Source of the DNA: Guyparkeria sp. SCN-R1
Lineage (GTDB): Bacteria; Pseudomonadota; Gammaproteobacteria; Halothiobacillales; Halothiobacillaceae
Reading direction: 5' to 3'
NCBI RefSeq assembly: GCF_003932495.1
Contig: NZ_QZMT01000018.1
Location: 1 to 37,189, forward strand
DNA length: 37,189 bases
Shown here piece after piece: positions 3,145-23,725 of this stretch. The notes below the pieces were generated by a model that was not told the DNA's origin, did not search any database, and saw only the letters and a list, made by a program, of their open reading frames with translations. The translations under genes and the position numbers were made by a program. Every line of letters begins with the position of its first letter. Positions within the stretch are counted from its first letter, which is position 1.

Positions 3145-4758
3145 TTGTCAGTGTTGACCCGATTCAGCATCTACCCCTACCCCGATGTGCGCCGTCAAGT
3201 GGACAGGTGCTCGTGGCCCCGGCATCTATGCGCCGCGCTCTGCGTGGTGCTGGGCCTACTGGCGGCGCCGAACGTGTTCGCGTTCAGCCTGGAGCAGGTC
3301 GACGCCGTCGCCCAAGCGCTTGCCGAGCGCGAACACGAGCCGACTCCACCGATTCCTGAGGCACTGGGCAAGATCGATGCCGACACCTTCGGCCAGATCC
3401 GCTACAAGCGGGGTTCACGGCTGGACTGGACCGGCGCCCGGTTTTCCATTCGGCCGGTCTCGGCCGGGCATGTCTATCGACACCCGGTCGAGTTGTTTGA
3501 GGTTGTCGATGATGAGGTGCAGCAGGTTGCGTTCACCAAATCGGACTTCGACTGGCCGAACGAGTCGTTTGCCCGCAAGGTGCCGGCCGATCTGGGTTTC
3601 GCGGGATTCGATATCCGTTATCCCCTGCAACGCCCGGATGCGCCGGAGACGGTCGTTCGCTTCCTGGGCGGCGCCCTGTTCCGTGCGGTGGCCCATGACC
3701 AGGTGATGGGGGCTCATGCCCGGGGCCTGGCGATCGACACGGGTCTGCCTGCCGGCGAGGAATTCCCGGCATTCCGGCGATTCTGGCTGGTTCGTCCGGA
3801 GCCGGGCGCGCGCCGCATGACCCTGTACGCGTTGATGGACAGCAAGTCGCTGACCGGGGCGTACCGCTTCGTCATCGAGCCCGGAGCCGACCAGACGATA
3901 ATCCGGGTAAAGGCCAGGCTGCATGCTCGGCGGCCCGTCGACCGACTGGGCCTGGCGCCGATCTCGTCGATGTACTTCTACGGTCGGAACGAACGGCCGG
4001 ACGATTCGCACTGGCGGCCGGCCGTGTTCAGTTCCAGCGGGCTGCTGATCCACGAGGGCGAGGGGGACTGGTTGTACCGGCCGCTGCGAAACCCGCGCGA
4101 GTTGCGTTTGGACCAGTTTCCGGCCGACGGGGTGCGTGGCTTCGGTCTGATGCAGCGCGATACCCGCTTTGGCACGTTCGAGGATCCCGTGGGCCGTTTC
4201 GAGAAGCGTCCGTCCGTGTGGGTGACGCCTCAGGCGGGTTTCGGTGGCGGCACCCTCGACCTGGTGCAGCTCCCGGTAAACAGTGAACGTCACGAGAACC
4301 AGGTGGTCTTCTTCGAGCCGCATGAACCGCTGAAGCCGGGCGATCCGATCGGCGTCGCCTACGACGTGAGTTTCGGCCAGCGTGACGCGGTGGCCGAGGA
4401 GGTGGCCCAGGTGCGGGGTGTGCTCATTGGTGTCGAGGGCGCCGAGGAGCAGGGAGGGGAGCAGTCGGCTCCCGCGTATCGCGTCAACGTGGATTACACC
4501 GGCGGTGCGCTGTCGTCCCTGTCCGACAGTGCACCGGTGGTCGCCTCGATTTCCCGTGAACAGTCGGTTCGCGTGCTCGAGCAGTCCGTGGCGCCGTTGC
4601 CAGCCGGAGGCTGGCGCTTGTCGATGCTGCTGCAGCCGACGGGCGAGCAGCCGTTGAGGGTGCGTGCGTCCCTGGCGCTCGAGGGCAAGACCATTTCCGA
4701 AAGCTGGCAGGACACGCTGCCCGGCCAGGTCGGCCGCTATCTGGAGGAAGGAAAATGA
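3145..4758 (+). CDS. opgG: Periplasmic glucan biosynthesis protein OpgG (MdoG family)
   Basis: This 537-aa periplasmic protein acts in making osmoregulated periplasmic glucans, working on the beta-1,2-glucan backbone that OpgH delivers. A basic N-terminus followed by a hydrophobic stretch ending in VFA gives a Sec signal peptide with likely cleavage after residue 46. The mature part has the long MdoG beta-sandwich domain, including a conserved RGFGLMQRDTRF segment (about residues 331-342) and RPSVWVTP (about 354-361), then a C-terminal Ig-like domain. E. coli OpgG and OpgD have been assigned to beta-1,2-glucanase family GH186. The start is TTG at 3145 behind a GGAAAGAGGA ribosome site; GTG at 3151 is an alternative. 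Its stop overlaps the next gene's ATG (ATGA at 4755-4758), so it heads a coupled opg operon. Confidence 0.93.
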   Translation: MSVLTRFSIYPYPDVRRQVDRCSWPRHLCAALCVVLGLLAAPNVFAFSLEQVDAVAQALAEREHEPTPPIPEALGKIDADTFGQIRYKRGSRLDWTGARFSIRPVSAGHVYRHPVELFEVVDDEVQQVAFTKSDFDWPNESFARKVPADLGFAGFDIRYPLQRPDAPETVVRFLGGALFRAVAHDQVMGAHARGLAIDTGLPAGEEFPAFRRFWLVRPEPGARRMTLYALMDSKSLTGAYRFVIEPGADQTIIRVKARLHARRPVDRLGLAPISSMYFYGRNERPDDSHWRPAVFSSSGLLIHEGEGDWLYRPLRNPRELRLDQFPADGVRGFGLMQRDTRFGTFEDPVGRFEKRPSVWVTPQAGFGGGTLDLVQLPVNSERHENQVVFFEPHEPLKPGDPIGVAYDVSFGQRDAVAEEVAQVRGVLIGVEGAEEQGGEQSAPAYRVNVDYTGGALSSLSDSAPVVASISREQSVRVLEQSVAPLPAGGWRLSMLLQPTGEQPLRVRASLALEGKTISESWQDTLPGQVGRYLEEGK

Positions 4759-8841: not shown

Positions 8842-8894
8842 GAGTGGTGGGCCCAACAGGACTCGAACCTGTGACCAAGCGATTATGAGTCGCC
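8842..8894. repeat. Left attachment repeat (53 bp), orphan 3' fragment of tRNA-Ile(CAT)
   Basis: This stretch is identical over 53 bp to 23673-23725, which is the 3' part of the intact tRNA-Ile gene on the minus strand. Here the homology stops inside the anticodon stem, so the copy cannot make a tRNA. It marks the far end of the integrated element, as expected when an integrase recombines into a tRNA 3' end and leaves the gene intact at the other junction. It lies 48 bp after the opgD stop; a short inverted repeat CGCTGAAATTCAGCG sits just before it at 8818-8832. Confidence 0.95.
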
Positions 8895-10933: not shown

Positions 10934-11043
10934 AGGCCGACACCACCAAAGGGGTGGCGAATGGTTCTGGCGAACCTGCCCGGGCTGACCGGGCAACGTT
11001 GACGGTATCGCTCATCAACTAGATGGGCAACTGCCTCGACTTC

Positions 11044-11089
11044 ATTGCCTCCCCTCGGTGGGTAACGACACCCAACTCATGGAGGCAAT
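11044..11089 (+). promoter_or_regulatory. Ribosome-site-masking hairpin of the AlpA-like gene
   Basis: ATTGCCTCC (11044-11052) is perfectly complementary to GGAGGCAAT (11081-11089), and the latter contains the Shine-Dalgarno GGAGG for the ATG at 11093. A smaller hairpin TGGGT/ACCCA (11059-11063 with 11070-11074) nests inside. When folded, the ribosome site is buried in a 9-bp stem, so translation of the regulator should depend on RNA refolding, a bound factor or an antisense RNA. Confidence 0.6.
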
Positions 11090-11092
11090 CTC

Positions 11093-11332
11093 ATGACACC
11101 AACCCCTACCCAAGCGGCGGTTTCAACCGTCCAGCCATCTGTCGTTGTCGATAGCGGCCTGAGCACTGCGGCCCTGGCTTCCGCAATCGGCTACAACACA
11201 CAGAGCATCCACGCTCGCCTTTGCCGTAAAGGTGACTTCTACGGCATCCGCCCGAAGAAGCTGCCAAACGGTCGCCTCGTATGGCCGGCCAATACGGTTG
11301 ATCGTCTACTGGGGGAGAAAGAGGAGGCTTGA
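11093..11332 (+). CDS. AlpA/excisionase-like DNA-binding protein
   Basis: This 79-aa protein has a MerR/excisionase-type helix-turn-helix: STAALASAIGYNTQSIHARL (about residues 24-43) followed by a wing with KKLPNGRLVWPANTVDRLL (about 55-73). In P4-like satellites and genomic islands such small proteins switch on integrase or replication genes, or serve as excisionase. The ATG at 11093 follows GGAGG at 11081-11085, which lies in a masking hairpin. It is the only recognisable transcriptional regulator in the element, and it leads directly into the replication genes. Confidence 0.7.
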   Translation: MTPTPTQAAVSTVQPSVVVDSGLSTAALASAIGYNTQSIHARLCRKGDFYGIRPKKLPNGRLVWPANTVDRLLGEKEEA

Positions 11333-11334
11333 AG

Positions 11335-11742
11335 ATGACTGCGAACCACCAGAACGGCGGTCGCGCAGTCGGAGCAGGCACCTCTGATCTTCGCAATCCG
11401 CCAGCATCAACGAAACCCCAGTTCCACGACGTAATCGCTTGCATGCGGCACCACGGCCTTGCCCCCGCTGCGGCCATTCGATTCATCGACGATGGCGTGG
11501 CCCGTCAGTATCGGGTCGATGGTGACCAGCCAGGAGCGGCGCGTGCGTTCTACATCGCGCTGCCGCGAAATGCCTGGGGTGTTGGCGCCATCGCCTTTGG
11601 CGATCTCGCCGGCGGCACCAAGGCCGTTTGTGCTCCGCAACTGCCGCCGAACCGTCAGGAAGCGGTCAGGGCGTTTGCTGATTGTCAGCTCAGCCACGTG
11701 CGGAACAAGCGCGGAGCGCGTGTTGGGGGGGTGCTGGAATGA
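11335..11742 (+). CDS. 135-aa primase-associated N-terminal-domain-like protein
   Basis: The segment FIDDGVARQYRVDGDQPGAA (about residues 49-68) followed by AFYIAL and AFGDLAGG resembles the short N-terminal module found at the start of many phage and P4-type TOPRIM primases (pattern: hydrophobic-DG, H/Q-R/Y-R-V-x-GD, then FGDW). No TOPRIM or zinc motif is present, so this looks like that module encoded as a separate gene. ATG 11335 is preferred over TTG 11329 because GAGGAGG (11321-11327) is spaced 7 nt from it. It ends in an ATGA overlap with the CHC2 gene, linking it to replication. I hold the family comparison loosely. Confidence 0.6.
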   Translation: MTANHQNGGRAVGAGTSDLRNPPASTKPQFHDVIACMRHHGLAPAAAIRFIDDGVARQYRVDGDQPGAARAFYIALPRNAWGVGAIAFGDLAGGTKAVCAPQLPPNRQEAVRAFADCQLSHVRNKRGARVGGVLE

Positions 11743-12260
11743 CAAAAGCCCCCACCGAAACCGGACAGGGGCCACGCCACGAAGCGCCCCACCAGCATAG
11801 CACCGTCCCGCCGTTCGATTTACTGCTTTCTCGCTGCGACACGACCAAGGCGAGGAAGCAGAGTCCGGCGCGTGGGATGACGCGCTCAATCACTGTTCGA
11901 TGCCTGGCCCATCCCGACAAGAGCCCGAGCCTTAGCGTCAGTGAGAAACAGAACGGCGACGTGGTGTTCCATTGTCACGCCGGATGCTCCAAGGAAAGCA
12001 TCCTCGAGGCGGCGGGGCTCGAGGTGATCGACCTGATCCATCCCGATAATCGCTACGCACAACGCATCAAGCCCCACGCCGGCCCGAAATTCAGCGCATG
12101 GCAAGCCCTGCAGGCCATGGCCACCGACGTGATCGTGGTCGCCCTGTGCGCGGCTGAGATTCGCCGCAATGGCTGGCTGAAGGATGACGACCTCGACTCA
12201 CTGATCGAGGCGGAATCGAGAATCCAGGACACGATCCAGGCTGGAGGGCTGCTGCGATGA
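11739..12260 (+). CDS. CHC2 zinc-finger primase-like protein
   Basis: This 173-aa protein contains a DnaG-type CHC2 zinc ribbon: C55 and H58 (VRCLAHPD), a SPSLSVSEK strand, then C79 and C83 (FHCHAGC). This is the DNA-recognition domain of primases. No catalytic TOPRIM or AEP domain follows; the rest is a helical region ending near the next gene. It therefore probably works together with the neighbouring DUF3987 protein in element replication, a primase split over separate genes. The ATG at 11739 overlaps the previous stop (ATGA), and the stop overlaps the next ATG at 12257. An upstream in-frame start at 11682 would overlap the previous gene deeply and is unlikely. Confidence 0.78.
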   Translation: MTKAPTETGQGPRHEAPHQHSTVPPFDLLLSRCDTTKARKQSPARGMTRSITVRCLAHPDKSPSLSVSEKQNGDVVFHCHAGCSKESILEAAGLEVIDLIHPDNRYAQRIKPHAGPKFSAWQALQAMATDVIVVALCAAEIRRNGWLKDDDLDSLIEAESRIQDTIQAGGLLR

Positions 12261-13873
12261 GTAACGTAGTCAACAAAGCCGAGGCGATGCGTGGCCTGCA
12301 TGTCGAAGAAGAGGTCGACGACCGGGATTACACCATCGCACCACCGAAGGCTGACCCAGCCATGTTTCATGGCCTCGTCGGCGAGGTGGCAGAGGCGGCC
12401 ACCATCGGACGGGAGCCGAACCGCTCGAGCGTAGCCCTGGCCTACCTGACCTGGCTGTCCGCTGCGGCCGGCCGGCATCACTTCATCGCCGTGGGTGATC
12501 AGACCCACCCGCTGCTGATCAACGGTCTGCACGTCGGCCGATCCATGGTCGCGGCCAAAGGCGAGAGCTGGGCCCTGGTCAAACGTATTCGCCGCGCGGT
12601 CGGCGAGATGATGGACGGTGATCCGGTGCATGGCACCGATGACGATGGCGCCGTGATCACGCCGGAGCTGTTCGCCGGCCGGGTTCACTCCGGCGGCCTG
12701 TCTACAGGTGAGGGGCTGGCGGCACAGGTTCACGACGGCTACATGGTTGGCAAGACCGAGCACGCGCCCATCAACGACAAGCGTCTGCTGATCATCGAGG
12801 CGGAGTTCGCCAAGGTGCTTGAGCAAGGCAAGCGTGAAGGCAACACACTGAGCCCGATCATTCGCGACCTGTTCGATGGCGGATCAATCCAGCCGGCCAC
12901 CAAGTCCGCCAGCGTCTGGGCAACCGAGCCCCACGTCGTCATTCACGGCGCGATCACGCCGCACGAGTTGCGGGCCCGCATGGATGCCACGGCCGCATTC
13001 AATGGTCTGATGAATCGGTTCCTCGTCATCTTCGCCGAGCGCACGTGCCTGGTGCCGTTTCCCGAACCGACGCCCGACGAGGTAGTCCGGCGGCTGGCGG
13101 TCCAGTCCCGGGACGTGATCAAGTTCGCCCGGGGTGACTATCCCCGGACCAAGTACACCGCACCGATCACGTTGTCCGACGAGGCCCGGGAAATGTACCG
13201 GGACGCCTATCCCGACCTTCGGCGGCGCGACGGATCCACGCCGATCATCACCTCGCTGCTCGAGCGCCGGGCACCGATCACAATGCGCTTGGCCGGCTTG
13301 TTCGCCATGACCGACCAGACCGCCGTGATCGGCCCGGCTCATATGCGAGCCGCGCTCGCCTGGTCACGGTTCCACCGGGAATCGGTCGCCTACGTTTTCG
13401 GCCATGACATAACCCAGCGTATCGAATCGAGTAAGCGCGACGGTCAAAAACAGAAGATCCTCGAAGGGATCCCCGCCGGCCGATGGATGACGCGGACCTT
13501 CATTCAGCGCGATGTGTTCGCCAAACGGATCACGTCCAAGGAATTGACCGCCGCACTCGATGACCTGCTCGCCGACGGTCTGCTCGAGCAGAGGGAGAGG
13601 CCCAAGCAGAACGGCATCGGCAACCTCAAGGAGTATTCCCGCCCCGCGCAAGATGCGCAGCATGCGCAAGACCGCAACGCGGCGAGCTTTGCGCCGATGC
13701 GCAACAGTGCGCAAGACGCGCAGCAAGGGCGGAGCGGCCCGGAATCCTCGCCCCATGTTGCGCATGTTGCGCAGAGGTGCGCAGACGCTGAAACCCGCAC
13801 CAGAGCAGGCGTTGCGCATGATGCGCATGTTGCGCACGGCGCAGACGGAAATGATGACGAGGTGGTGATATGA
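12257..13873 (+). CDS. DUF3987-family helicase/primase-like replication protein
   Basis: This 538-aa protein matches the DUF3987 (YfjI-like) family found on phages, satellites and plasmids beside CHC2 primase genes. A degenerate Walker A loop, VGRSMVAAKGESW (about residues 93-105), and a Walker B-like RLLIIEAEF (about 176-184) suggest an ATPase; NRFLVIFAER (about 253-262) is another family hallmark. A winged-helix-like segment lies around 395-450. The C-terminal 75 residues are low-complexity (Ala, Gln, His, Asp triplets) and are encoded by a striking array of TGCGCA words in all three frames, a candidate origin of replication inside the gene. Both ends overlap neighbours by ATGA, so it is translated as part of a four-gene unit. 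Confidence 0.8.
   Translation: MSNVVNKAEAMRGLHVEEEVDDRDYTIAPPKADPAMFHGLVGEVAEAATIGREPNRSSVALAYLTWLSAAAGRHHFIAVGDQTHPLLINGLHVGRSMVAAKGESWALVKRIRRAVGEMMDGDPVHGTDDDGAVITPELFAGRVHSGGLSTGEGLAAQVHDGYMVGKTEHAPINDKRLLIIEAEFAKVLEQGKREGNTLSPIIRDLFDGGSIQPATKSASVWATEPHVVIHGAITPHELRARMDATAAFNGLMNRFLVIFAERTCLVPFPEPTPDEVVRRLAVQSRDVIKFARGDYPRTKYTAPITLSDEAREMYRDAYPDLRRRDGSTPIITSLLERRAPITMRLAGLFAMTDQTAVIGPAHMRAALAWSRFHRESVAYVFGHDITQRIESSKRDGQKQKILEGIPAGRWMTRTFIQRDVFAKRITSKELTAALDDLLADGLLEQRERPKQNGIGNLKEYSRPAQDAQHAQDRNAASFAPMRNSAQDAQQGRSGPESSPHVAHVAQRCADAETRTRAGVAHDAHVAHGADGNDDEVVI
13645..13843. repeat. TGCGCA iteron-like array, candidate replication origin
   Basis: Ten exact TGCGCA palindromes start at 13654, 13663, 13698, 13708, 13759, 13768, 13778, 13813, 13822 and 13831, with one-mismatch copies at 13645, 13717 and 13838. 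Within clusters the spacing is 9-10 bp and the gap between clusters is twice 35 bp. The words fall in all three codon phases of the DUF3987 gene (GAT-GCG-CAG, ATG-CGC-AAC, TGC-GCA), so the DNA word and not the protein is being kept. Iterons inside or beside the initiator gene are typical of plasmid and satellite origins. Confidence 0.65.
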
Positions 13874-14256
13874 GAGCCGCCGACATCATCACGACCCTGG
13901 CCGGTCGAGGGATCGCCGTCTCACTGGAGGATGGCCGCATCCATGCCCGCCCCGGGCACCGCCTGACCGATGACTACGTGCGCCTGATCCGCCAGCACAA
14001 ACCGGCCCTGATGCATCTGCTCAGAACCCGGGCCCAGGCCGATGCCGCCGGCGATGCTGTCGCCCATGAATCGCCCCGCGCGCTGTCACCGATCGAGAAG
14101 GCCGGCATCGCTCGGCTTTGCCGCCAGCATTACGACGCCGATGATTCGGCGATCCGGGCAACGATCGAGGACTGCGAAGGCTGCCCAGCGATGCGTGAGT
14201 ATCACCTGGCGCTCGATCGCCTCATGACAACCCACCGTACGGCGGGGGCTACATAA
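13870..14256 (+). CDS. TubC N-terminal docking domain-like small protein
   Basis: This 128-aa protein opens with a compact alpha-beta fold (GRGIAVSLEDGRIHARPGHRLTDDYVRLIRQHKPALMHLL, about residues 12-51) that resembles the TubC N-terminal docking domain. Proteins of this kind often sit directly after DUF3987 genes in phages and islands. A second part carries a CRQHYDADD...CEGCPAM segment with three Cys, possibly metal binding. The start overlaps the DUF3987 stop (ATGA). Its role is unknown; a protein-protein adaptor in the replication complex is a reasonable guess. It ends in an 8-bp convergent overlap with a small minus-strand ORF. Confidence 0.65.
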   Translation: MRAADIITTLAGRGIAVSLEDGRIHARPGHRLTDDYVRLIRQHKPALMHLLRTRAQADAAGDAVAHESPRALSPIEKAGIARLCRQHYDADDSAIRATIEDCEGCPAMREYHLALDRLMTTHRTAGAT

Positions 14257-14353
14257 GCCCCGCCCACTCGAACAGCTTTTTCATACCCCACAGCAGGCCA
14301 AGGAAGAACACCGTCACCACGACGACTTCCAACGGATTGAAGCAGATGGTCAT
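14249..14353 (-). CDS. 34-aa single-span membrane peptide
   Basis: A minus-strand ORF starts at ATG 14353 behind a very strong AGGAGGAGG ribosome site. The peptide has a short N-terminus, one hydrophobic span (LEVVVVTVFFLGLLWGM, residues 8-24) and a basic tail (KKLFEW). It is antisense to the surrounding operon and converges on the TubC-like gene. Such peptides can be lysis factors, toxins or membrane anchors; I do not recognise this one. The ribosome site and typical membrane-peptide architecture support it despite its length. Confidence 0.5.
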   Translation of the reverse strand: MTICFNPLEVVVVTVFFLGLLWGMKKLFEWAGLM

Positions 14354-14526
14354 TGGTGCCTCCTCCTCACGCGCTTGATGCGTAGAGCGTGGCACACCCC
14401 GCCGACCTGAACACCCCTCCTGTCACGGCCACCAGACGCCGGCGAAAACTCATTCTCGAATGCTGGCCTCTCTCCGATCATCAGCTTTAGGGGAAAAGCT
14501 GGCAGACCTTGAGAGGAGGGCTCGAC
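14354..14526. promoter_or_regulatory. Divergent spacer ahead of the ejection-protein gene
   Basis: This 173-bp region separates the minus-strand membrane peptide from the plus-strand ejection gene and should hold both promoters. A hairpin CAGCTTT (14482-14488) with AAAGCTG (14495-14501) stands just before the GAGAGGAGG ribosome site of the downstream gene. It may be a start-site or processing element of the late-gene transcript. No clear promoter hexamers are visible. Confidence 0.3.
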
Positions 14527-15333
14527 ATGGGTGGGAAAGGTTCATCTCCGCCGCCGCCGGATTACAGCCAGTTGGCTGACGCGAGCGAGGAATCGGCTCG
14601 CATCATGGCCGATCTCGGCTATCAGCAGCTAGACGAGGCCCGGCGCCAGTACGAACGCACGTTGCCCCTGATTGAGCGCGTCACCGAGTCGCAGATCGCG
14701 ACGATGGACGAGACGCAGCAGCAGGGGCGCGACTACTACGACTACCAGAGCGAGACGTACCGGCCGCTCGAGAAAGAGCTGGTCGGCGATGCGCGCAACT
14801 TCAGCACGCAAGCCGAGTTCGAGCGTCGTGCTGGGCAGGCTGCCGCGGACTACGAAAAGCAGCAGACGCAGGCCCGGCAGGCGAACGCTCGCCAGATGGC
14901 CTCGATGGGCGTCAACCCCAATTCGGGCAAATACCAGGCGATCCAGGCGCAAAGCGGGCTCACCAACGCGGCGAACAAGGCCGGGGCGATGAACAACGCC
15001 CGCACTCAGGCCGAGAATCTTGGGTACGCACGTCGCATGGATGCGGCTGGCCTTGGCCGCAACCTCGCCGGAGCGTCGCAGGGCGCCTATGGCGTAGCGA
15101 CCAGCGCCGGCAACTCAGCGGCAAGCAACACGCAGCAGCCCGGACAGAACCTGATGGCTGGCATGGGGCAAGGGTCCGCGACCATTGGCTCTGGTCGCGA
15201 CATGATGCAGACAGGACTCGGCACCGCTCTGAGCGGGCAAGCGGACATGTACAACGCGGCCCAGAAGCGTGGCTCTGACAGTTCGGCGGCACTTGGGTCG
15301 GCCATCGGTATGGCCGGCGCGATGATGATGTAA
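14527..15333 (+). CDS. Probable phage internal virion/DNA-ejection protein
   Basis: This 268-aa protein begins MGGKGSSPPPPDYSQLA and continues with a Gln/Ala/Arg-rich helical body, then a Gly/Ser/Ala-rich tail. I associate this pattern with phage proteins encoded beside large polyvalent or internal virion proteins in podovirus-like genomes. The region MASMGVNPNSGKYQAIQ and the later AAGLGRNLAGAS are distinctive landmarks. ATG 14527 follows a GAGAGGAGG ribosome site; the TTG at 14509 lies upstream of that site and is not the start. The gene is followed by the 1803-aa polyvalent gene after 16 bp. The likely job is to travel in the virion and help deliver DNA or the large partner protein into the next cell; this is inferred. 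Confidence 0.65.
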   Translation: MGGKGSSPPPPDYSQLADASEESARIMADLGYQQLDEARRQYERTLPLIERVTESQIATMDETQQQGRDYYDYQSETYRPLEKELVGDARNFSTQAEFERRAGQAAADYEKQQTQARQANARQMASMGVNPNSGKYQAIQAQSGLTNAANKAGAMNNARTQAENLGYARRMDAAGLGRNLAGASQGAYGVATSAGNSAASNTQQPGQNLMAGMGQGSATIGSGRDMMQTGLGTALSGQADMYNAAQKRGSDSSAALGSAIGMAGAMMM

Positions 15334-15349
15334 CGCGAGGAGTCCCCCG

Positions 15350-18300
15350 ATGGCAGAGCAGTACATCCAACCTCGCGAGTTCCTACGCCGGGTCAAAGAG
15401 AAGCGCCCCGACCTGGATGACGAGTACATCCTTCGGTCGTGGGACGAGCACGTTAAGCCGCTGGCCGGCCAGGCGGACGAGGAGGGCGAGGGCACAAGCC
15501 TGTTCGGCATGTCCGACGAGCAGCGCGACCACGTTGCTCGAGGCGGGTATCTCACCGATCGCGCCGATGAAATGCGCGAGCATGACGAAGGTTGGGCGGG
15601 TGACCGTCGGGCTGACCTGAAGGTGGGTGCTGGCGGCTTGGTCGAGGGCATCGGTACGCTGCTCTCCCGCCAGCTTGGCGGAATGGACAACCCGCTCCGT
15701 GCCAAGGGCCAGGCAATGCAGGATGCCGGAGAACGCGAGGTCGGTGACGAGTACGGAAGCGATCTCGAGCGCCGTCAGGCCAGCGTTGAATCCGCTGATG
15801 GTGAGCTTGCGAAGGCTCTGGCGTGGGGTGCTGAGACGTTCACGGATGCTGACCTCGCCGCAGGCATGGTGACTCGGGAGATCCCTTCGCTGGCGGTGGG
15901 TGGTGTCACGGGCTTTGGGGCGAAGAAGCTGGCACAGACCGGCGCACGGAAGATCGGTGCGTCGGATGATGCGGCGCGCAAGGTTGGCAACAAGGTGGGC
16001 GTCGGTACCGCCGTGGGCGTGGAGTCCGCCGAGTCTGGGGCGCTCACCAAGTCCGAGACGTTCGATGAATTGACTGACCTCCCCCACGAGGAGTTCATCG
16101 ATGCGGCCAAGCCCCGGGTGCGTGAGCAGTACGAGGCGTTGCGCAACGGCGGAATGTCCGAACGCGAGGCGGTCGAGCAGATCGCCGACGAGCTTTCCAA
16201 CGTGGCTGGCCTCCGGGCGGCCGGCTTCACTGCGCTCATGCAGGCCCTTCCTGCTTCCCGTTCGATCGAGCGAGTGATTACCGGCTCCATGAAGCGCGAG
16301 GCTGGCGGTTTGGCTGGTGCGGCCAAGGGTGGGGCAAAGGCCGCTGGCGCCGAGGGTGCCACCGGTGCGGCCGATGAGGCGTATCAGACGGCAATCGGCA
16401 ACCTCGCCGTGCAGCAGGTCGATGAGACGCAATCGCTCGCCGAGGGCACGGGCGTGGCCGCAGCCCAGGGCGGCACGTTTGGTGCTGGCATGGGTGGCCC
16501 GGCCGGTGCTCTTGAGGGGGCAGCCGGTACAAAGGGCACAACGCCGCCGGTTGAGAACGAGGGGCGGCCCGCTGATCCGGGCGAGTACGTGGTCGATGCC
16601 GAAGACGGCAAGATCAAGAAGGCAGAGGAGGCCGACCGGCCGGCGGTGGTGGGCGATCCCGATGCCCCGCGGGTAACCGTCGAGGGACTGGGCGAGCGTG
16701 AGCTTGTCTCCGATGCCCTGGGGGATCGCGCCATTGTCCGTGATGAAACCGGCAAGCGCGACGTGGTGGAGATCGTGCCGACGCCTGACGGGCCCACCTA
16801 CCGCCGCATGGGAGACGATGACTCGACCGATTCGGCAGTGAACCGGCGCGCCGCCGAGATCGTCGCCGAGAATGATCCGGACCCCGCACGCGGTGACGCC
16901 ATCGTGCCGCCCGAGGTGTGGGATCAGGCGCAGGCACAGGCACGGGCCGAGATCGAGGCCGCACGCCAGCCGATCGAGCTTAGGGCAAAAGCAGCCGAGA
17001 CGATCAATGAGGCCCGGGAGTCCGGCCCGTTGGGGCGCGCGTCAGCCCCGACGATGGCCACCAATCTCAACCGGCAGATCGAGATTGAGGAGGCCGTGTC
17101 TCGCGCAAGCCGCAGCGAGTCCGAGTCATTGTCGATCGACATCGATCCGGTGGCCCGCCAGCGGGGGCAGTCTGACGGTGTGGCAGACGCCAGATGGAAT
17201 ACCTCGCTACCCAGTGCGGAACCGCAAACGCGGGTTTCACCCACTGCAAAAACCCCGGAAACCAACGTTTCTGATGTTTCTGCGGTGGCCGAAACGGCGC
17301 ATTCGCGTTCGCAGCCGCGCACCGAGGAGGTGATCCGGCGGTCGGATGGCCGCCCGTTCCCGACGCTCGATGCCGCCCGGCGTGCGGCTCGTGCCCAAGG
17401 GGTTGCCCGCACTCACGTGCCCGAGCCGGCGGGGAGCGACGGCTACGTGCTCAATCCCGCCGGGAAGGAGAACGGCGTCGCCGACTTGGGTCGGGATCAG
17501 GTCGAGCCCGGCCAACAGGCCGTAGCCTTTCCCGATGGTGCGCAACCGGCGGCCGCCAGTGGATCACGACAAATGGCGGGCGAGAGCGGGGCAAACGCCG
17601 GCGGCGCTCGGTCAAGTAGCCGACAAGCCACTCAGCGCGCCCAGGCGGCGATCGACCCCCCCCCGGAGACACGCCAACCGGCGGCCCCGCAAGCAGCGCC
17701 CACCCAGTCACGCGAGCCAGAGCCGGGAACGCTCCGGGATTCCCGGATGGTTGGCGAGGATGCCCCCCGCCTGCCTGGCCGCAAGCTCAAACCGATCCGC
17801 CGCCGCGATGGTCAGCCGTTCAAGACGCTGGCGGCCGCCCGCCGTGCGGCGACGAATCATGCCGCGCGCGACACGCACGAGGTGCGCGAGGTGAACGACG
17901 GGGGGTATGAGCTCGCGCCGCTCGGCCGGGTGCGCCCCGTTGTCGCCGAGCAAGACATGCAGCCGGGGCCAACGATCGACGACCAGACACGTGACACGAG
18001 CCGCGGTGTCGATCGCGAGACGGATAAGCCCGGCACCCAGGCGGGTGATCCAGACGAGACCCGCGCCAATGGCGGTTCGAGTGGCAACGGTGGCGGTGTG
18101 CGGTTCAGCCGATCGGCGCCGGAGGGCGAGCCAGCACCCACCCGGAATCACGGCATCACCCGCATTCGCGGCAAGGCCGACAAGGTGATCGACGGCTTTC
18201 TCTATCACGTCGTGGACCGCTTCAAGGATCTGGCCGACTTCCAGAAGGCCGCCGGCAAGGTGCCGGAGACTGCCGACGCGATGATGGCCCAGGAGAACTT

Positions 18301-20761
18301 CGCCGGCCGTGCCCGTAAACGACTCGATGACCTCGATGACTTCCACGTGCGCCCGCTGCTGGATGCGATCAACCGTGGCGGTTTCACGATGGAGCAGGTG
18401 GGTGAATATCTCCACGCCCGTCACGCTCAAGAGGCCAACCGGGTATTGGCGGAGCGCAATCCCGGCCGTGGCGACAACTCGGCCCTGTCTGGCATGACCG
18501 ACATGGAAGCCCGGGCGATCCTCGCCGAGCACGCGGACAACGCCGCGATGCAGGAGATCGGCGAGCGCGTCGATCGGATGAACGCCGAACGCCTCGAGAA
18601 CATGGTGAACGACGGCCTGCTTTCCCCGGAACAGGCGGATAGTTGGCGGTCGATGTACAGCCACTACGTGCCCTTGCACCGTGACGCGATGAAGGGTCCG
18701 GATGGCGAGCTTGCCGATGCCCCGCTGCCGCGGCGAGGTCAGGGCTTCCATATCGAGGGCAGGGAGTCGAAGGTGCGCACCGGCTCAACCAAGCCGGTCG
18801 AGCACGGGTTGGTGATTCCTCACCTGGTCGCGCAGTTCGAGGCCAGTGCCGTGCGAGGGGAGAAGAACCTGGTCGGTCAGGCCCTGCTCGAGCTCGCGAC
18901 GAATCATCCCGATCCGAACGTGTGGGAAATCGAGAAGCCCTACCGGGTTGCGAGTCGCAAGCCCGACGGGACGATCCGGTATCGGGCTGACAACCGCACC
19001 CGCGACAACGAGCTCATGGTGAAGGTGGGCGGCAAGGGAGTGCGGATCTCGTTCAACGAGAAGAACCCGCACGCCGTCCGCCTGGTGCGCGAGATGCGCA
19101 ACCTGTCCCAGCGAGACATGCCCAAGCTGATGCGCTACCTGCATTCGGTGATGCGTTACCTGTCGATGGTGAACACGTCGCTCAACCCGGAGTTCGTGTT
19201 GACCAACTTCGCCCGGGACTTGCAGACGGCGGCCTACAACCTGGGGGACACCGAGCTCGAGAAGGTCGCCATGCAGGTGGTGCGTGACGGGGTAAAGCAC
19301 GGCATCCGCGGCATGTGGCGCAACCTTAAGGGCCACCGTGACACTGAGTGGGCCCGGTGGGCGGATGAGTTCGAGCGCGCCGGCGGCATGGTCGGATGGA
19401 TGGACGTGTACGAGAACATCGAGGACCGAGCCAACGCGATCAACCGGGAGCTCGACATGGTTGGCGGCAAGCACGTCGCGCGGCGCACGGGGCGCAAAGT
19501 CATGGACCTGGTGAGCGATGCGAACAGCGCGATCGAGAACGCCGTGCGTCTCTCCGCCTACGTCCATGCGCGTAAGCGAGGGATCAGCGAGGCGCGCGCG
19601 GCAAACCTGGCGAAGAACCTGACCGTCAACTTCAACCGCCGAGGTGCGTCCGGCCAGACGCTCAACACCTTCTACCTGTTCTTCAACGCGAGCGTGCAAG
19701 GCACCGCGCGCATGTTCTCGGCGATCCACAAGAGTCGGAAGGTCCGGGCCATGGTTGGCGCCACGGTGGTGGCCGCGGCGATCCTCGACATGGTGAACCG
19801 GGCGATCAGCGAGGAGGACGAGGACGGGCTGACGTTCTACGACAAGCTGCCGGATCACGTTCGTGACCGGAACCTAGTGATCTTCTACGGGGGTGGCGAG
19901 ACGGATTACGTCACGATCCCGCTGCCTTGGGGCTACAACGTTTTCCACGTTGTCGGGCAGACCATGGGCCGGGCGATCGATCATCACGCGGGCGATGGCA
20001 TCCCCACGTACAGCATCGCCGATGAGGCGGCGCGGCTGGCGGGCTCGACCATGGAGGCATTCAATCCGGTGGCGTCGTCATCCCCGCTGCTCACGCTTTC
20101 GCCCACGGTGCTCGACCCGGCGGTGACGGTGGCGACCAACACCGCCTGGCATGGTGGGCCGCTGATGCCCCATGACAACCCCTTCTACTCGAAGCCGGAT
20201 AGCCAGCGGTACTTCTCCACTGCATCGGCGCCGTCACGCTGGGCCACCGAGCAAATCAATGAGCTCACGGGAGGCAATGACATTCGCCCCGGAGCGATGG
20301 ACGTTTCGCCCGAGACGATCGACCTGATTTGGAACACCGCCACCGGCGGGGCGGGTCATTTCCTGCTCAACACCATGGACTCGGCATATCGCCTGGCGGC
20401 GCCCGGCAAGGAGGTGGAGTCGGAAAACCTGCCATTCATTCGCAAGCTGAGGGGCAGGGAATACCCATCGTCCGATTTCGAGATGTACTACGACCGCAAG
20501 GATCGAATCGAGGTCTTGCAGCGTGAGATGCGGACTCTAGGGGGCGAGGAGCGCAGGCAAGCCATGCTCCTCAATGCCAACGAGCGCCGAATGATCCCGA
20601 GGCTCAAGGCAGTTGAGAAGCGGCTGAAAATCCTTCGTAAGCGCAAGGACCGGTTGAAGGCCCATGACGCGTCAGACAAGCAGATAGAGGCCGTCGATGA
20701 CCTGATCACTCAGCAGATCAAGCAGTTCAACGGCGTGTACAACCGCGTGGTGCTCGAGTGA
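15350..20761 (+). CDS. Giant polyvalent protein with LPD38-type domain
   Basis: This 1803-aa protein takes up more than a third of the element. The N-terminal 400 residues include Gly/Ala-rich, weakly hydrophobic stretches like those of phage internal virion proteins. A disordered middle carries two copies of a small module, RRSDGRPFPTLDAARRAAR (about residues 662-680) and RRRDGQPFKTLAAARRAAT (about 816-834), each ending near a GY-L-P-G segment. Residues of about 1000-1130 are helical, and 1260-1560 contain the LPD38-like core (NPEFVLTNFARDLQTA; NRRGASGQTLNTFYLFFN). The C-terminus is a charged coiled coil. Polyvalent proteins are known as multi-domain proteins delivered with DNA by phages and conjugative elements to protect it. 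No protease or nuclease motif is obvious to me. GAGGAG precedes the ATG. Confidence 0.75.
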   Translation: MAEQYIQPREFLRRVKEKRPDLDDEYILRSWDEHVKPLAGQADEEGEGTSLFGMSDEQRDHVARGGYLTDRADEMREHDEGWAGDRRADLKVGAGGLVEGIGTLLSRQLGGMDNPLRAKGQAMQDAGEREVGDEYGSDLERRQASVESADGELAKALAWGAETFTDADLAAGMVTREIPSLAVGGVTGFGAKKLAQTGARKIGASDDAARKVGNKVGVGTAVGVESAESGALTKSETFDELTDLPHEEFIDAAKPRVREQYEALRNGGMSEREAVEQIADELSNVAGLRAAGFTALMQALPASRSIERVITGSMKREAGGLAGAAKGGAKAAGAEGATGAADEAYQTAIGNLAVQQVDETQSLAEGTGVAAAQGGTFGAGMGGPAGALEGAAGTKGTTPPVENEGRPADPGEYVVDAEDGKIKKAEEADRPAVVGDPDAPRVTVEGLGERELVSDALGDRAIVRDETGKRDVVEIVPTPDGPTYRRMGDDDSTDSAVNRRAAEIVAENDPDPARGDAIVPPEVWDQAQAQARAEIEAARQPIELRAKAAETINEARESGPLGRASAPTMATNLNRQIEIEEAVSRASRSESESLSIDIDPVARQRGQSDGVADARWNTSLPSAEPQTRVSPTAKTPETNVSDVSAVAETAHSRSQPRTEEVIRRSDGRPFPTLDAARRAARAQGVARTHVPEPAGSDGYVLNPAGKENGVADLGRDQVEPGQQAVAFPDGAQPAAASGSRQMAGESGANAGGARSSSRQATQRAQAAIDPPPETRQPAAPQAAPTQSREPEPGTLRDSRMVGEDAPRLPGRKLKPIRRRDGQPFKTLAAARRAATNHAARDTHEVREVNDGGYELAPLGRVRPVVAEQDMQPGPTIDDQTRDTSRGVDRETDKPGTQAGDPDETRANGGSSGNGGGVRFSRSAPEGEPAPTRNHGITRIRGKADKVIDGFLYHVVDRFKDLADFQKAAGKVPETADAMMAQENFAGRARKRLDDLDDFHVRPLLDAINRGGFTMEQVGEYLHARHAQEANRVLAERNPGRGDNSALSGMTDMEARAILAEHADNAAMQEIGERVDRMNAERLENMVNDGLLSPEQADSWRSMYSHYVPLHRDAMKGPDGELADAPLPRRGQGFHIEGRESKVRTGSTKPVEHGLVIPHLVAQFEASAVRGEKNLVGQALLELATNHPDPNVWEIEKPYRVASRKPDGTIRYRADNRTRDNELMVKVGGKGVRISFNEKNPHAVRLVREMRNLSQRDMPKLMRYLHSVMRYLSMVNTSLNPEFVLTNFARDLQTAAYNLGDTELEKVAMQVVRDGVKHGIRGMWRNLKGHRDTEWARWADEFERAGGMVGWMDVYENIEDRANAINRELDMVGGKHVARRTGRKVMDLVSDANSAIENAVRLSAYVHARKRGISEARAANLAKNLTVNFNRRGASGQTLNTFYLFFNASVQGTARMFSAIHKSRKVRAMVGATVVAAAILDMVNRAISEEDEDGLTFYDKLPDHVRDRNLVIFYGGGETDYVTIPLPWGYNVFHVVGQTMGRAIDHHAGDGIPTYSIADEAARLAGSTMEAFNPVASSSPLLTLSPTVLDPAVTVATNTAWHGGPLMPHDNPFYSKPDSQRYFSTASAPSRWATEQINELTGGNDIRPGAMDVSPETIDLIWNTATGGAGHFLLNTMDSAYRLAAPGKEVESENLPFIRKLRGREYPSSDFEMYYDRKDRIEVLQREMRTLGGEERRQAMLLNANERRMIPRLKAVEKRLKILRKRKDRLKAHDASDKQIEAVDDLITQQIKQFNGVYNRVVLE

Positions 20762-20769
20762 TGAGCCGA

Positions 20770-21072
20770 TCACTTCACGCAGATGCCCCGGAGCTCGCCG
20801 GTTCGTTTCATGCAGTCGAAGCCGACCGGGCAGTCCGTTCCCCATTGGCAGCCCTTCGACTCCTTCACATTGCCATCGACCGAGTAGTCAGGCCGCGCAT
20901 TCCCATACTCGTCACTCGGAGTGACGCAGTTGCCCGTTGCCTGATAGGACCCCTGGGGTTTCACGCACTCCTGGCCCATTGCGCAGTCGTAGTCGCCGTA
21001 GCACCCAGCTTGCGCCACACCAGACGTCGCCATGAACGCGCCGGCAAGCAATCCCATCGTCAGCAGTTTCAT
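20770..21072 (-). CDS. Secreted Cys-rich protein with duplicated four-Cys motif
   Basis: This 100-aa protein has a clean signal peptide (about 22 residues, ending VAQA) and eight cysteines in two repeats of the pattern C-x5-C-x5-C...C: CYGDYDCAMGQEC and CQWGTDCPVGFDC. It should fold with disulfides in the periplasm or outside the cell. I take ATG 21072 because it starts the signal peptide and has GAGG upstream; a start at 21153 would add a tail that overlaps the divergent gene. It is convergent with the polyvalent gene and separated from it by 8 bp. It may be a cargo gene acting on the host surface, for example against superinfection; the function is unknown. Confidence 0.7.
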   Translation of the reverse strand: MKLLTMGLLAGAFMATSGVAQAGCYGDYDCAMGQECVKPQGSYQATGNCVTPSDEYGNARPDYSVDGNVKESKGCQWGTDCPVGFDCMKRTGELRGICVK

Positions 21073-21139
21073 CGTCAACCCTCGTGGTCCGTCACTGAAT
21101 GAGCGACCACGGTAGCAACCAACGACAGGAGCAAACCAG
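21073..21139. promoter_or_regulatory. Divergent promoter gap with inverted repeat
   Basis: This 67-bp gap lies between the minus-strand Cys-rich gene and the plus-strand 155-aa gene. CGTGGTC (21083-21089) and GACCACG (21105-21111) form a 7-bp inverted repeat with a 15-bp gap, a plausible shared operator. The AGGAG at 21127-21131 is the ribosome site of the rightward gene. Confidence 0.35.
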
Positions 21140-21607
21140 ATGTTCAACAACAACCAGCGATATGCCTATGAGCAATTGGGAACCGCCGGCTTCGTGATCG
21201 AGGACTACGCGGTGGCCGAGGAGATCCGGCCTGATTTTCTGTCCAGTCGGTCGAACACCATCACGTTTCCTTCGGATGTACAGCGTGCAGCCAAGGAACG
21301 CCGCGCCACCGCCTATCGCATGAGCATCGGAGGCAAAGACGTAGTGGTGTGGTCGAAGTCCACCAACAACCTCGAGGACCGGATCGAGAATGTCGTCGGG
21401 GCCAAGGTGGTGATGCTGGGCCCGGTGGACGAGGCGCCTGCGGCACCAGAGCAAGGTCACGACTATTGGCAGGCACGCAAGCGGGACCTTGATGCGGCCG
21501 AGGACGAGCGCACGCGTAAGCTCGCCGCCGAGACTCCCCCGGCCCATGACTGCGCTCGTCGCCGGGAGATCCTGGAGGCACGCGAAAAGGTTGGGGGTGC
21601 GGCTTAA
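21140..21607 (+). CDS. 155-aa unknown element protein
   Basis: The protein is soluble, has no signal peptide, and shows a mixed alpha-beta N-terminal half (YAYEQLGTAGFVIEDYAVAEEI; AYRMSIGGKDVVVWSKS) and a charged helical C-terminal half rich in Glu, Ala and Arg. I recognise no family. The ATG is preceded by AGGAG with 9-nt spacing. Its stop shares one base with the ATG of the following small gene, which in turn overlaps the terminase gene, so these three form one operon. A role in packaging or late control is possible from position only. Confidence 0.6.
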   Translation: MFNNNQRYAYEQLGTAGFVIEDYAVAEEIRPDFLSSRSNTITFPSDVQRAAKERRATAYRMSIGGKDVVVWSKSTNNLEDRIENVVGAKVVMLGPVDEAPAAPEQGHDYWQARKRDLDAAEDERTRKLAAETPPAHDCARRREILEAREKVGGAA

Positions 21608-21909
21608 TGCAGCGGATGAGTCGGAGAGAGTTGGTCGAGGCCCTGGCCGAGTTCGGTGTCGGGAAGGATTTCACCATTCGCGACCTGGCCGAGCTTGTCG
21701 GGTCCGATGACTACCCGGTGCGGGGCGCTTTCGCCTGGTGTATCAAGGCGCGCATTGTGGAGCCGAGCGGGGAAGTGACGCGCCGGACGTCGCGAGGCAA
21801 GCCCTACAAGGCGGTGACATACCGCTGGACGGGCTCAACCCGGGCGACCCGCTACACGCAGCCGGTGCCGGTCAACGCGGAATGCGAGGCGTGGCTTCGG
21901 GGTGCGTGA
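21607..21909 (+). CDS. 100-aa winged-helix-like protein
   Basis: The order of predicted elements, a helix (RRELVEALAEFG), a second helix pair (TIRDLAELVGSDDYPVRGAFAWCIKARIV) and a strand-turn-strand (TRRTSRGKPYKAVTYRW), fits a winged helix-turn-helix DNA-binding fold. It lies between an unknown gene and the small terminase subunit with overlaps on both sides (1 bp upstream, 3 bp downstream), so it could help the terminase recognise DNA or regulate late genes. The assignment rests on pattern reading only. Confidence 0.55.
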   Translation: MQRMSRRELVEALAEFGVGKDFTIRDLAELVGSDDYPVRGAFAWCIKARIVEPSGEVTRRTSRGKPYKAVTYRWTGSTRATRYTQPVPVNAECEAWLRGA

Positions 21910-22373
21910 TGGCTTGGCACGATGGCCTGTCAGAGAAGCAGCGTCGATTCGTTGAGGCCTTCGCCGCAAACGGGGGCAATGCGACGAGGGCGGCGATGGC
22001 GGCGGGGTATGCCCACCCGCACGTCAAAGGGTCGCAGACGTTAGAAAAAGTTAGTGTTCGCGAGGCCATCGAGGCACTGCGCTTGGCGACAACGAATCCG
22101 GCCATCGCCACCCGAGAGCAGCGCCAAGTGTTCTGGTCGCGGGTGATACGCGGAGAGGAGACGTACTTCGACCCCAAGCTGGGGCGTGAAGTGCCTTACC
22201 CGATGAAGGCACGACTTCGTGCGTCGGAGCTCCTGGGGAAATCTCAGGGAGACTTCGTGCATCGGCGTGAGGTCGCCGGCCGCGGTGGTGGGGCGCTCAG
22301 GATCGTTCAGGTTCCGCCGAAGGAAGTCGCCCAGCGTGTCGAGGAATTGCGGGAGGCGATCGTGGGCCAATAG
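21909..22373 (+). CDS. terS: Phage terminase small subunit (TerS)
   Basis: This 154-aa protein carries the Terminase_2-type N-terminus LSEKQRRFVEAFAANGGNATRAAMAAGY (about residues 7-34), a helix-turn-helix that binds packaging sites, followed by a helical oligomerisation region and a basic GRGGG linker near the C-terminus. Small terminase subunits choose which DNA is packaged. No large terminase subunit is encoded here: the gene is closed by a terminator 39 bp later and then by opposite-strand genes. An orphan TerS is the hallmark of phage-inducible islands that redirect a helper's packaging motor to their own DNA. The ATG at 21909 overlaps the preceding stop; GTG 21906 is an alternative. Confidence 0.82.
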   Translation: MAWHDGLSEKQRRFVEAFAANGGNATRAAMAAGYAHPHVKGSQTLEKVSVREAIEALRLATTNPAIATREQRQVFWSRVIRGEETYFDPKLGREVPYPMKARLRASELLGKSQGDFVHRREVAGRGGGALRIVQVPPKEVAQRVEELREAIVGQ

Positions 22374-22411: not shown

Positions 22412-22440
22412 AACCCACCGGCTTTGGTCGGTGGGTTTTC
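22412..22440 (+). terminator. Rho-independent terminator after terS
   Basis: AACCCACCG (22412-22420) and CGGTGGGTT (22429-22437) form a 9-bp stem with an 8-nt loop, followed by a T run. It ends the 155-aa/wHTH/terS transcript, confirming that nothing further, such as a large terminase gene, follows in that operon. Confidence 0.85.
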
Positions 22441-22477: not shown

Positions 22478-22565
22478 GTCACACCAGTCACACGACCGAG
22501 CACGGGAGGTGTGACGACCCAAGCCCCGCCACCTCGCGGTTGTCACGCACGTCACACGTGTCACA
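22478..22565. repeat. GTCACA iteron-like cluster downstream of terS (candidate pac site)
   Basis: GTCACA occurs at 22478, 22487, 22551 and 22560, GTCACG at 22542, and the inverse TGTGAC at 22510. Neighbouring copies are spaced exactly 9 bp. The array lies between the terS terminator and the 3' end of a minus-strand gene, whose stop codon falls in the last repeat, so most of it is non-coding. A small terminase subunit commonly binds repeats near its own gene; an origin or a regulator site are alternatives. Confidence 0.55.
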
Positions 22566-22908
22566 CCCGGTCTGGGGTTGGTCCGTCTGATCGCTCATCC
22601 GCTGGCGGGTCTGTCACTGCTTCCGCGTCGAGCGCCAGGGCCAACTCCGCAAGCGCCTCGAACAGCGTGCTTGGCCCCAATTTCCCGTCGAACAAATCCA
22701 TGGTTTCGCCGACCGTTGGCGGAGGTGACTCGCCAATGAGCGTCCCGCGCCGCCGATGAATCTCGATGAGCATGGGAAGGCGTGCCCGGCGTTCGCGGAC
22801 AAGTCGCAACGCATCCGGATCGTCTTGGCTGACCCTTTCCAGTTGATCGAGCAGAAGGCGATCGGCGGCGGGCGAATAGGCGGCGCGCCGGTCCTGATGA
22901 ACTCCCAC
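22561..22908 (-). CDS. 115-aa unknown protein after the lipoprotein gene
   Basis: The reading frame starts with GTG at 22908, 2 bp after the lipoprotein stop, and runs to TGA at 22561-22563. The product is soluble and acidic, with a basic helical middle (RLVRERRARLPMLIEIHRRRG) and a C-terminal helix rich in Ala, Leu and Glu (TLFEALAELALALDAEA). I recognise no family. The ribosome site is poor, so it probably relies on coupling to the lipoprotein gene. A much longer frame extends upstream to 23709 but reads antisense through the att repeat and is not real. Confidence 0.5.
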   Translation of the reverse strand: MGVHQDRRAAYSPAADRLLLDQLERVSQDDPDALRLVRERRARLPMLIEIHRRRGTLIGESPPPTVGETMDLFDGKLGPSTLFEALAELALALDAEAVTDPPADERSDGPTPDRV

Positions 22909-22910
22909 GG

Positions 22911-23393
22911 TTAGAACTGGACCTGGTACCGGTTGCCGTCCTGATCCACACCCTCGCCGTGACCTTTCGGCATGATCCCGGGGCGAATGTCCATGTACAG
23001 GGTGATCACCGTGCCCTGATCTCCCCGCAGAAATCCGCGTGCCGTGGCGTTGCTCGGCGGCACGAAGGTTGTGCTGCTGCCCGATACGTTGCCCGAGTGG
23101 CGGTACATGGTGCCGCTGGACGTGTCGCGCGATGAGCCGGAGAAAGAGCCAGTGGAGTTTGTGACGGCGACCCCGCCACCCTGATAGCTGCCCGTGTACC
23201 TGCCCTCGAATGCCTCCCCGGTCTCCGGGTTGTATGCCGTCATGTCTCCTGTGCCGTGGCTCCGCTCGATCTGGAAGTCCATGACGGTGCCGGACTGAAC
23301 GGCAAGGAGATCGCCTTTGATCATCGTTCCGCAGCCGGTAATGAACAGGGCTGCGAGGCCGATTAGGGGGAGGGTCCGCATCGATCGAATCAT
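22911..23393 (-). CDS. Element-encoded lipoprotein
   Basis: This 160-aa protein has a lipoprotein signal: a basic start, a hydrophobic stretch and lipobox ITGC, so Cys at about residue 21 would be acylated and the protein anchored in a membrane. Asp is not at position +2, which favours outer-membrane sorting. The mature part is rich in Gly, Ser and Thr with beta-strand character. ATG 23393 is chosen for AGGA 8 nt upstream; ATG 23381 is possible. Lipoproteins expressed from prophages and satellites often change the host surface or block infection by related phages; that role here is only an inference from context. Confidence 0.7.
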   Translation of the reverse strand: MIRSMRTLPLIGLAALFITGCGTMIKGDLLAVQSGTVMDFQIERSHGTGDMTAYNPETGEAFEGRYTGSYQGGGVAVTNSTGSFSGSSRDTSSGTMYRHSGNVSGSSTTFVPPSNATARGFLRGDQGTVITLYMDIRPGIMPKGHGEGVDQDGNRYQVQF

Positions 23394-23405: not shown

Positions 23406-23450
23406 GGTCTCGTCTCGTGGTCGGAATGCCGACCGGTTGGAATCGAGACC
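23406..23450 (-). promoter_or_regulatory. Nested hairpin in the lipoprotein leader
   Basis: GGTCTCG (23406-23412) pairs with CGAGACC (23444-23450), and inside it GGTCGG (23419-23424) pairs with CCGACC (23429-23434) over a 4-nt loop. The structure sits 13 nt upstream of the lipoprotein start and may set mRNA stability or translation. From here to the right att repeat (23451-23672) I see no gene, only the second arm-type site. Confidence 0.4.
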
Positions 23451-23583
23451 CGCCCCGCATGGCTGACTTCCCATGTCCCCATGGTGCATCGCCGTCCTGG
23501 CGAGGGGGTCGAATCTGACGATAGCACTTGCCGGCTGAGAACGTTTCGGATGATCGAGAGAGGCGAGCCGGATGGACGAGGGA

Positions 23584-23672: not shown

Positions 23673-23725
23673 GAGTGGTGGGCCCAACAGGACTCGAACC
23701 TGTGACCAAGCGATTATGAGTCGCC
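23673..23725. repeat. Right attachment repeat (53 bp) within tRNA-Ile
   Basis: This copy is identical to 8842-8894. All but the first three bases lie in the tRNA-Ile gene, from its encoded CCA end to the anticodon stem. Excision between the copies would release a circle of 14,831 bp and restore opgD next to the tRNA. Confidence 0.95.

Follow-up and report, generated by a model that had tools for sequence, protein, structure and literature searches.

A candidate orphan origin-type iteron module beside the small terminase gene of a Guyparkeria satellite

The window, by which we mean the whole 37,189-nucleotide stretch of DNA that was analysed, contains an integrated satellite bounded on both sides by a 53-bp direct repeat of the 3′ part of tRNA-Met, with attL at 8842–8894 and attR, within tRNA-Met, at 23673–23725. 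The element encodes an integrase (Phage_integrase, Arm-DNA-bind_3), a DUF3987 replication helicase/primase (12257–13873, + strand; PF13148, 2.8e-18), a phrog_8003 virion structural protein, a 1,803-aa LPD38 protein and TerS, a Terminase_2 small terminase of 154 aa (terS, 21909–22373, + strand; Pfam PF03592, 6.8e-11; phrog_51). Between the LPD38 gene and a 155-aa gene lies a small ORF (20770–21153, − strand) whose product, judged by eye, is cysteine-rich with a signal-peptide-like start. A terminator-like hairpin, also read by eye, follows terS at about 22412–22439 (+ strand), and about 105 bp beyond terS begins the short repeat array considered here, which meets the 3′ end of a convergent 117-aa ORF (22561–22914, − strand) with no Pfam or PHROG match. 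Part of this ORF matches positions 4062–4229 of a phage locus, L181 (54% over 56 aa), in a frame out of phase with the phage's giant ORF; a search of viral contigs had confirmed no relative of the 117-aa ORF, and that search is not exhaustive, because this weak relative surfaced in L181 only later.

An earlier, sequence-only reading of this DNA described five direct copies of a short word (four GTCACA, one GTCACG) and one inverted copy, and all six are present where it placed them. The direct copies begin with a pair at 22478–22483 and 22487–22492, followed by the inverted copy at 22510–22515 (− strand) and by a further three at 22542–22547 (GTCACG, the sole departure from GTCACA), 22551–22556 and 22560–22565 (all + strand). 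The array thus consists of two 9-bp-phased groups, of two and three copies, with the single inverted copy in between, a layout we write as '++ - +++' (22478–22568, + strand; consensus TGTCACACC; offsets 0, 9, 32 for the inverted copy, 64, 73 and 82). Its placement in mostly non-coding space between the terS terminator and the convergent gene is likewise confirmed, with only the last copy touching that gene, at its TGA stop (22561–22563). The inner spacer (22516–22541) has 27% A+T, compared with 36% in the element, and holds no AT-rich melting region. GTCACA is not over-represented in the whole window (9 occurrences against 15.75 expected); the improbable part of the array is its clustering and geometry, not the frequency of the word. 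A word-free detector, which seeks six 7-mers in the order ++ - +++ with spacings variable within a range and has a maximum of 42, scored 41 at 22478, compared with maxima of 32–35 over both strands in 60 dinucleotide shuffles of the 14.9-kb element. Searches with the array in Rfam, with the array region against phages (blastn) and with its '+++' part against viral contigs (near-exact) returned no match.

The second array with a different word that the earlier reading mentioned is also present, at 13643–13838, and proves to consist of two six-copy modules that mirror each other, in this same layout but more tightly spaced. Its first half (13643–13723, − strand; TTGCGCATC/G; score 37) lies inside the 3′ end of the DUF3987 gene and is followed by the mirrored half (13758–13838, + strand; TTGCGCATG; score 40), with A+T inside the pair likewise low at 26–33%. 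Because the DUF3987 gene carries two TTGCGCATG modules at its 3′ end, the initiator-type helicase of the element has its own sites, and since TGTCACACC is a different word from TTGCGCATG, the GTCACA module does not match this resident initiator. The module lies 8.6 kb from the end of the DUF3987 gene, and the genes adjoining it are terS and the 117-aa ORF.

The two words also fare differently among relatives. A sister satellite in the same genus (G004:C17), with a DUF3987 protein 94% and a TerS 92% identical to those of the window, retains the TTGCGCATG modules and has lost the GTCACA array: blastn pieces ending at 22485 and starting at 22562 of the window join with a 6-bp overlap, and one degenerate iteron copy is left at the deletion point, as would be expected from recombination between the first and last iteron. 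About 1 kb beyond the deletion point the sister carries a worn '+++' fragment with similar flanks. The TTGCGCATG pair is kept together with DUF3987 in L005 (94% identity) and in L153 (86%, a 7-kb fragment only), and is worn and degenerate in G003 (75%). The stretches compared of the 94%, 86% and 75% DUF3987 relatives, 7 kb in the case of L153, yielded no intact GTCACA module. In these comparisons it is the TTGCGCATG word, not the GTCACA module, that accompanies DUF3987.

A counterpart of the GTCACA module is found in a different terS-bearing satellite of the genus (L007; G004:C2, about 11000–18000), which encodes a DUF927 helicase (PF06048, 1.2e-88), a Toprim protein and a Terminase_2 TerS. 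Here two '++ - +++' modules with the word TGTACCACC face each other in mirror orientation, one within the helicase ORF and the other just past its 3′ end. This word agrees with that of the window at 7 of 9 positions, the d1/d2 values of the two modules are 33/65 and 31/64 (31/64 in the window), and their spacers, at 24–30% A+T, are not AT-rich either.

The detector was also applied to 58 DUF3987 and DUF927 loci drawn from the class (30 and 28, respectively, some being the same place). A score of at least 39 was reached on 7 of the 116 locus-strands, all at five DUF927 loci (5 of 28, with the same caveat that some loci coincide), while 116 shuffles gave 35 or less and no strand of the 30 DUF3987 loci reached 39. 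The words at the five loci (L116, L117, L118, L125 and L129) are TGATACGT, TGTAACGCC, TGTTACGCC, TGTTCCACC and TGTTCCGGT. Only one of 18 VapE loci from the class exceeded the null, with a score of 38; the layout is thus not a general property of VapE loci.

GTCACA modules with window-like spacing occur at seven places in the genome collection: Aidingimonas, Salinicola, Halomonas, one Magnetococcales MAG, two in a single Microvirga assembly, and Phaeobacter. Six of them score 41–42 and the Phaeobacter module (L146) 35. In five, the module is at the 3′ end of a gene for VapE (L144, L145, L149, L150) or DUF927 (L147), and Aidingimonas, Salinicola and Halomonas account for three of these five helicase-linked places. 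The Halomonas-group prophages (L144, L149, L150) share the word core with the window, and their offsets (0, 9, 32, 63, 72, 81) nearly repeat its own (0, 9, 32, 64, 73, 82); unlike the window array, theirs follow a VapE gene and have an AT-rich spacer, and L149 carries an additional, weaker mirrored set (score 37). Across seven measured relatives, A+T between the inverted copy and the '+++' group is 62–79% in five and 46–50% in two.

A broader set of 82 GTCACA-array loci (73 viral loci, two further loci and the seven from the genome collection) points in the same direction. A replicase ORF lies within 400 bp of the array in 42 of the 82, compared with 15.5 expected at random positions, a count for which three query proteins were taken from loci under test (L029, L035, L068). 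The array is at the 3′ end of the replicase in all 42, which comprise 24 AAA_25, 10 VapE, five L068-type, two DUF3987 and one DUF927 locus; the 24 AAA_25-type arrays have a layout other than '++ - +++'. No replicase was recognised in the other 40 loci. Six of the 73 viral loci reach a score of 39, two of these on another word or strand (L029, L040), and the pairs L036/L144 and L047/L149 are not independent, because the arrays are identical within each pair.

One further module resembles that of the window in its surroundings. In the Microvirga assembly, a GTCACACCG module scoring 42 of 42 follows a DUF927 gene (L147, 7754–7843), and on a separate scaffold a second GTCACACCG module, also 42 of 42, is placed about 100 bp beyond a phage integrase of the Arm-DNA-bind_3 family (L148, 1475–1564), with no helicase seen in the 5.8-kb locus. 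The two loci have only the 102-bp module in common, at 79% identity, and the two scaffolds may be parts of one element. Like the window, L148 has a six-site module with a word close to TGTCACACC and no helicase beside it; unlike the window, it has an AT-rich spacer (by eye) and a matching DUF927 module in the same assembly. The Microvirga case looks like the situation in the window with the partner present, and its pair of modules, one with a helicase and one without, may be a second case of the origin capture considered below.

Together, these sequence comparisons support the assignment of the array to a class of initiator sites, show that its geometry is conserved and that it does not fit the resident initiator, and make it probable that the array is an iteron module of initiator type. 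The sequence-only reading had offered a second origin as the main alternative to a packaging site. The kind of site that it named is supported, in that the array shares both layout and word with the iterons that initiator helicases have at replicase 3′ ends; a working origin at this locus is a hypothesis. Our preferred reading, to which we give a probability of about 0.5, is that the array is an orphan origin-type module, most likely taken from elsewhere, for an initiator of the DUF927 or VapE kind that the element does not encode. That the module is still used in trans is a more tentative proposition, somewhat below even odds.

Known satellite origins offer a partial precedent. According to PMC7581432, Rep helicases of the SaPI type use their C-terminal domain to bind iterons immediately downstream of rep, appear to do so as two hexamers, and have a relative, Cch, that contains DUF927; PMC6092414 describes the origins of Gram-negative PICIs as two iteron sets flanking an AT-rich region. 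The window array resembles PICI and SaPI origins in its short iterons, arranged as two groups around a spacer, and in a geometry that recurs at DUF927 and VapE initiator-helicase genes. It differs from them in having no AT-rich spacer, no rep gene beside it, and a word other than that of the resident initiator's own pair. Because it has the binding sites yet lacks both a melting region and an adjoining initiator gene, we refrain from classing it as a PICI origin and call it an initiator-binding module of that kind. In the titles and abstract openings consulted, neither the six-site geometry nor an orphan module in a satellite was met, which is no proof that either is unpublished.

We hypothesize that the six sites of the module receive a ring-forming initiator helicase of the DUF927 or VapE kind, the probable source of the module being a satellite or phage of that type. 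When such a satellite or phage is active in the same cell, its initiator would bind the six sites and, once bound, would open or divert replication on this satellite. We infer all three steps of this model, namely that an initiator binds the array, that this initiator is foreign, and that replication starts upon binding. The near-perfect copies suggest a recent arrival or continued use. It is possible, though we consider it doubtful, that the satellite holds two sets of initiator modules, its own TTGCGCATG pair and one keyed to the GTCACA-type initiator of another mobile element, which would constitute origin capture between parasites. If so, the helicase of a competing satellite or phage could replicate this satellite in trans, or be titrated by it. 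The analysis makes a would-be packaging site into a testable question of replication. The six-site geometry is common to some DUF927 and VapE loci and, in a tighter form, to this DUF3987, with words that appear interchangeable; interchangeable words would make initiator specificity legible in the sequence, so that satellites and phages could be matched by it, and an orphan module would directly trace initiator swapping or cross-replication between parasites.

A GTCACA-type origin with a recognised helicase was sought in the host genome and 26 others of the order. The search required two perfect adjacent copies, and none of the 10 loci inspected among those it gave was recognised as such an origin. 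VapE was found in one of the 27 genomes, not in the host, and the DUF927 search covered part of the 27. We do not take a GTCACA-type partner to be absent, because the family search is not exhaustive; the same kind of search missed the window's own DUF3987.

The strongest competitor of an orphan module in use is that the array is a relic, without present function, of a DUF927- or VapE-type origin that belonged to some earlier or recombined satellite or phage, which we regard as a serious minority possibility. It fits an element without a cognate helicase, a GC-rich spacer, and the failure to find a mirror partner of the GTCACA module anywhere within the element. It also fits the sister satellite, in which the same stretch, from about the first to the last iteron, is gone and the degenerate '+++' remnant persists about 1 kb on. 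However, copies that score 41 of 42 are unexpected in an old relic, unless it arrived recently.

Considerably less probable is that the array serves the element's own DUF3987 initiator for copy control or as a second origin, as crr serves the alpha protein of P4. The ori1 and crr sites of P4 carry the same iterons. P4 is a precedent for a satellite with more than one iteron cluster, the clusters lying far apart, and L007 has two modules with one word. In P4, however, one word serves one initiator, whereas the window has two words, TGTCACACC and TTGCGCATG, and DUF3987 relatives at 94%, 86% and 75% identity keep the TTGCGCATG sites or traces of them, with no intact GTCACA module in the stretches compared. 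We rejected such a control site on the mismatch of the words.

The reading that the earlier note found attractive, a packaging (pac) site beside an orphan terS, fares no better. Under it, the satellite's TerS would bind the array and so provide the element with its own packaging start. The array adjoins terS, as would a pac site of a terS-bearing satellite, and several GTCACA arrays lie near terminase genes, with TerL within 4 kb in 21 of the 82 loci. The SaPI precedent is apt as well, since, as stated in PMC6092414, SaPIs have their own TerS and pac, and their TerS proteins recognise the pac site on their own genome. Against this, the sister TerS, 92% identical overall, is identical to that of the window at 68 of 70 N-terminal residues, and the array is nonetheless deleted there, so the array is not kept even with a near-identical TerS. 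The layout is also found with other TerS families or with none in view: it is met close to helicase genes where the terminase belongs to another family (Terminase_4 in L149, gpA in L068), and it occurs in DUF927 loci.

The closest virion genes found for the satellite are in a 54-kb IMG/VR phage record, the one behind L181, with matches to the 274-aa virion protein (90% over 270 aa), the neighbour of terS (54% over 98 aa) and TerS (67% over 142 aa). In this record terS runs straight into terL. The array, whose word the earlier note proposed to look for in candidate helper phages and in sister satellites, is gone from the sister, an absence from a similar satellite that the note itself had listed as refuting a pac site, and the phage record, which may be incomplete, contains no match to GTCACNNNNGTCAC; the only six-copy module scoring at least 36 in it is a low-complexity GAC repeat. 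The array is therefore missing from a phage record with a related TerS, which still leaves room for a satellite-specific pac, as such a site needs no copy in the phage. The sister comparison counts against a satellite-specific pac too, and we rejected a pac site on the sister and phage comparisons, as unlikely and of very low probability.

Slightly less probable still is a decoy role, in which the array would titrate the initiator of a GTCACA-type competitor, phage or satellite, and thereby slow the replication of that competitor. A lone, near-perfect cluster without a melting region or adjoining helicase is what such a decoy might look like, but no GTCACA-type competitor was recognised in the 27 genomes of the order, and a single six-site cluster would be a weak sponge unless highly replicated. 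Finally, arm sites for the integrase or an excisionase were rejected on distance and are very improbable. The short 9-bp repeats, the Arm-DNA-bind_3 integrase of this integrating element and the position of the L148 module after an integrase of that family might point to them. However, the array lies 1.1 kb from the attR core, whereas arm sites would be expected a few hundred bp at most from each att core; the sole GTCACA near attL sits inside the 53-bp tRNA repeat, and the other modules of this layout have helicases rather than integrases as neighbours.

Several minor features were noted alongside. A separate locus (L200–L214; G022:C32, about 49300–49455) has about 18 tandem GTCACACCT copies beside ABC-transporter-like genes (named by eye), forming a simple 9-bp tandem in a locus without a helicase match. 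A conserved non-coding element of 60–85 bp lies near the right end of the satellite (23443–23527) and, in L007, just after terS (11076–11134); in all, three satellites of the genus have it, and G009 carries it at three additional places (C21 and C29). It had seemed a better pac candidate than the array and was dropped, because the three G009 copies sit without the satellite, phage or helicase homologs tested and the phage record contains nothing that matches it; its appearance is that of a promoter or leader, or of a small RNA. Lastly, the 1,803-aa LPD38 protein of the satellite (14509–20761) aligns with a 4,065-aa giant ORF of the phage (L181, 413–12607; L188) at 51% in its N-terminal part and 68% in its C-terminal part. 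Judged from this alignment it looks like an internally shortened version of the giant ORF, apparently a reduced ejection protein of the helper type that the satellite has kept for itself.
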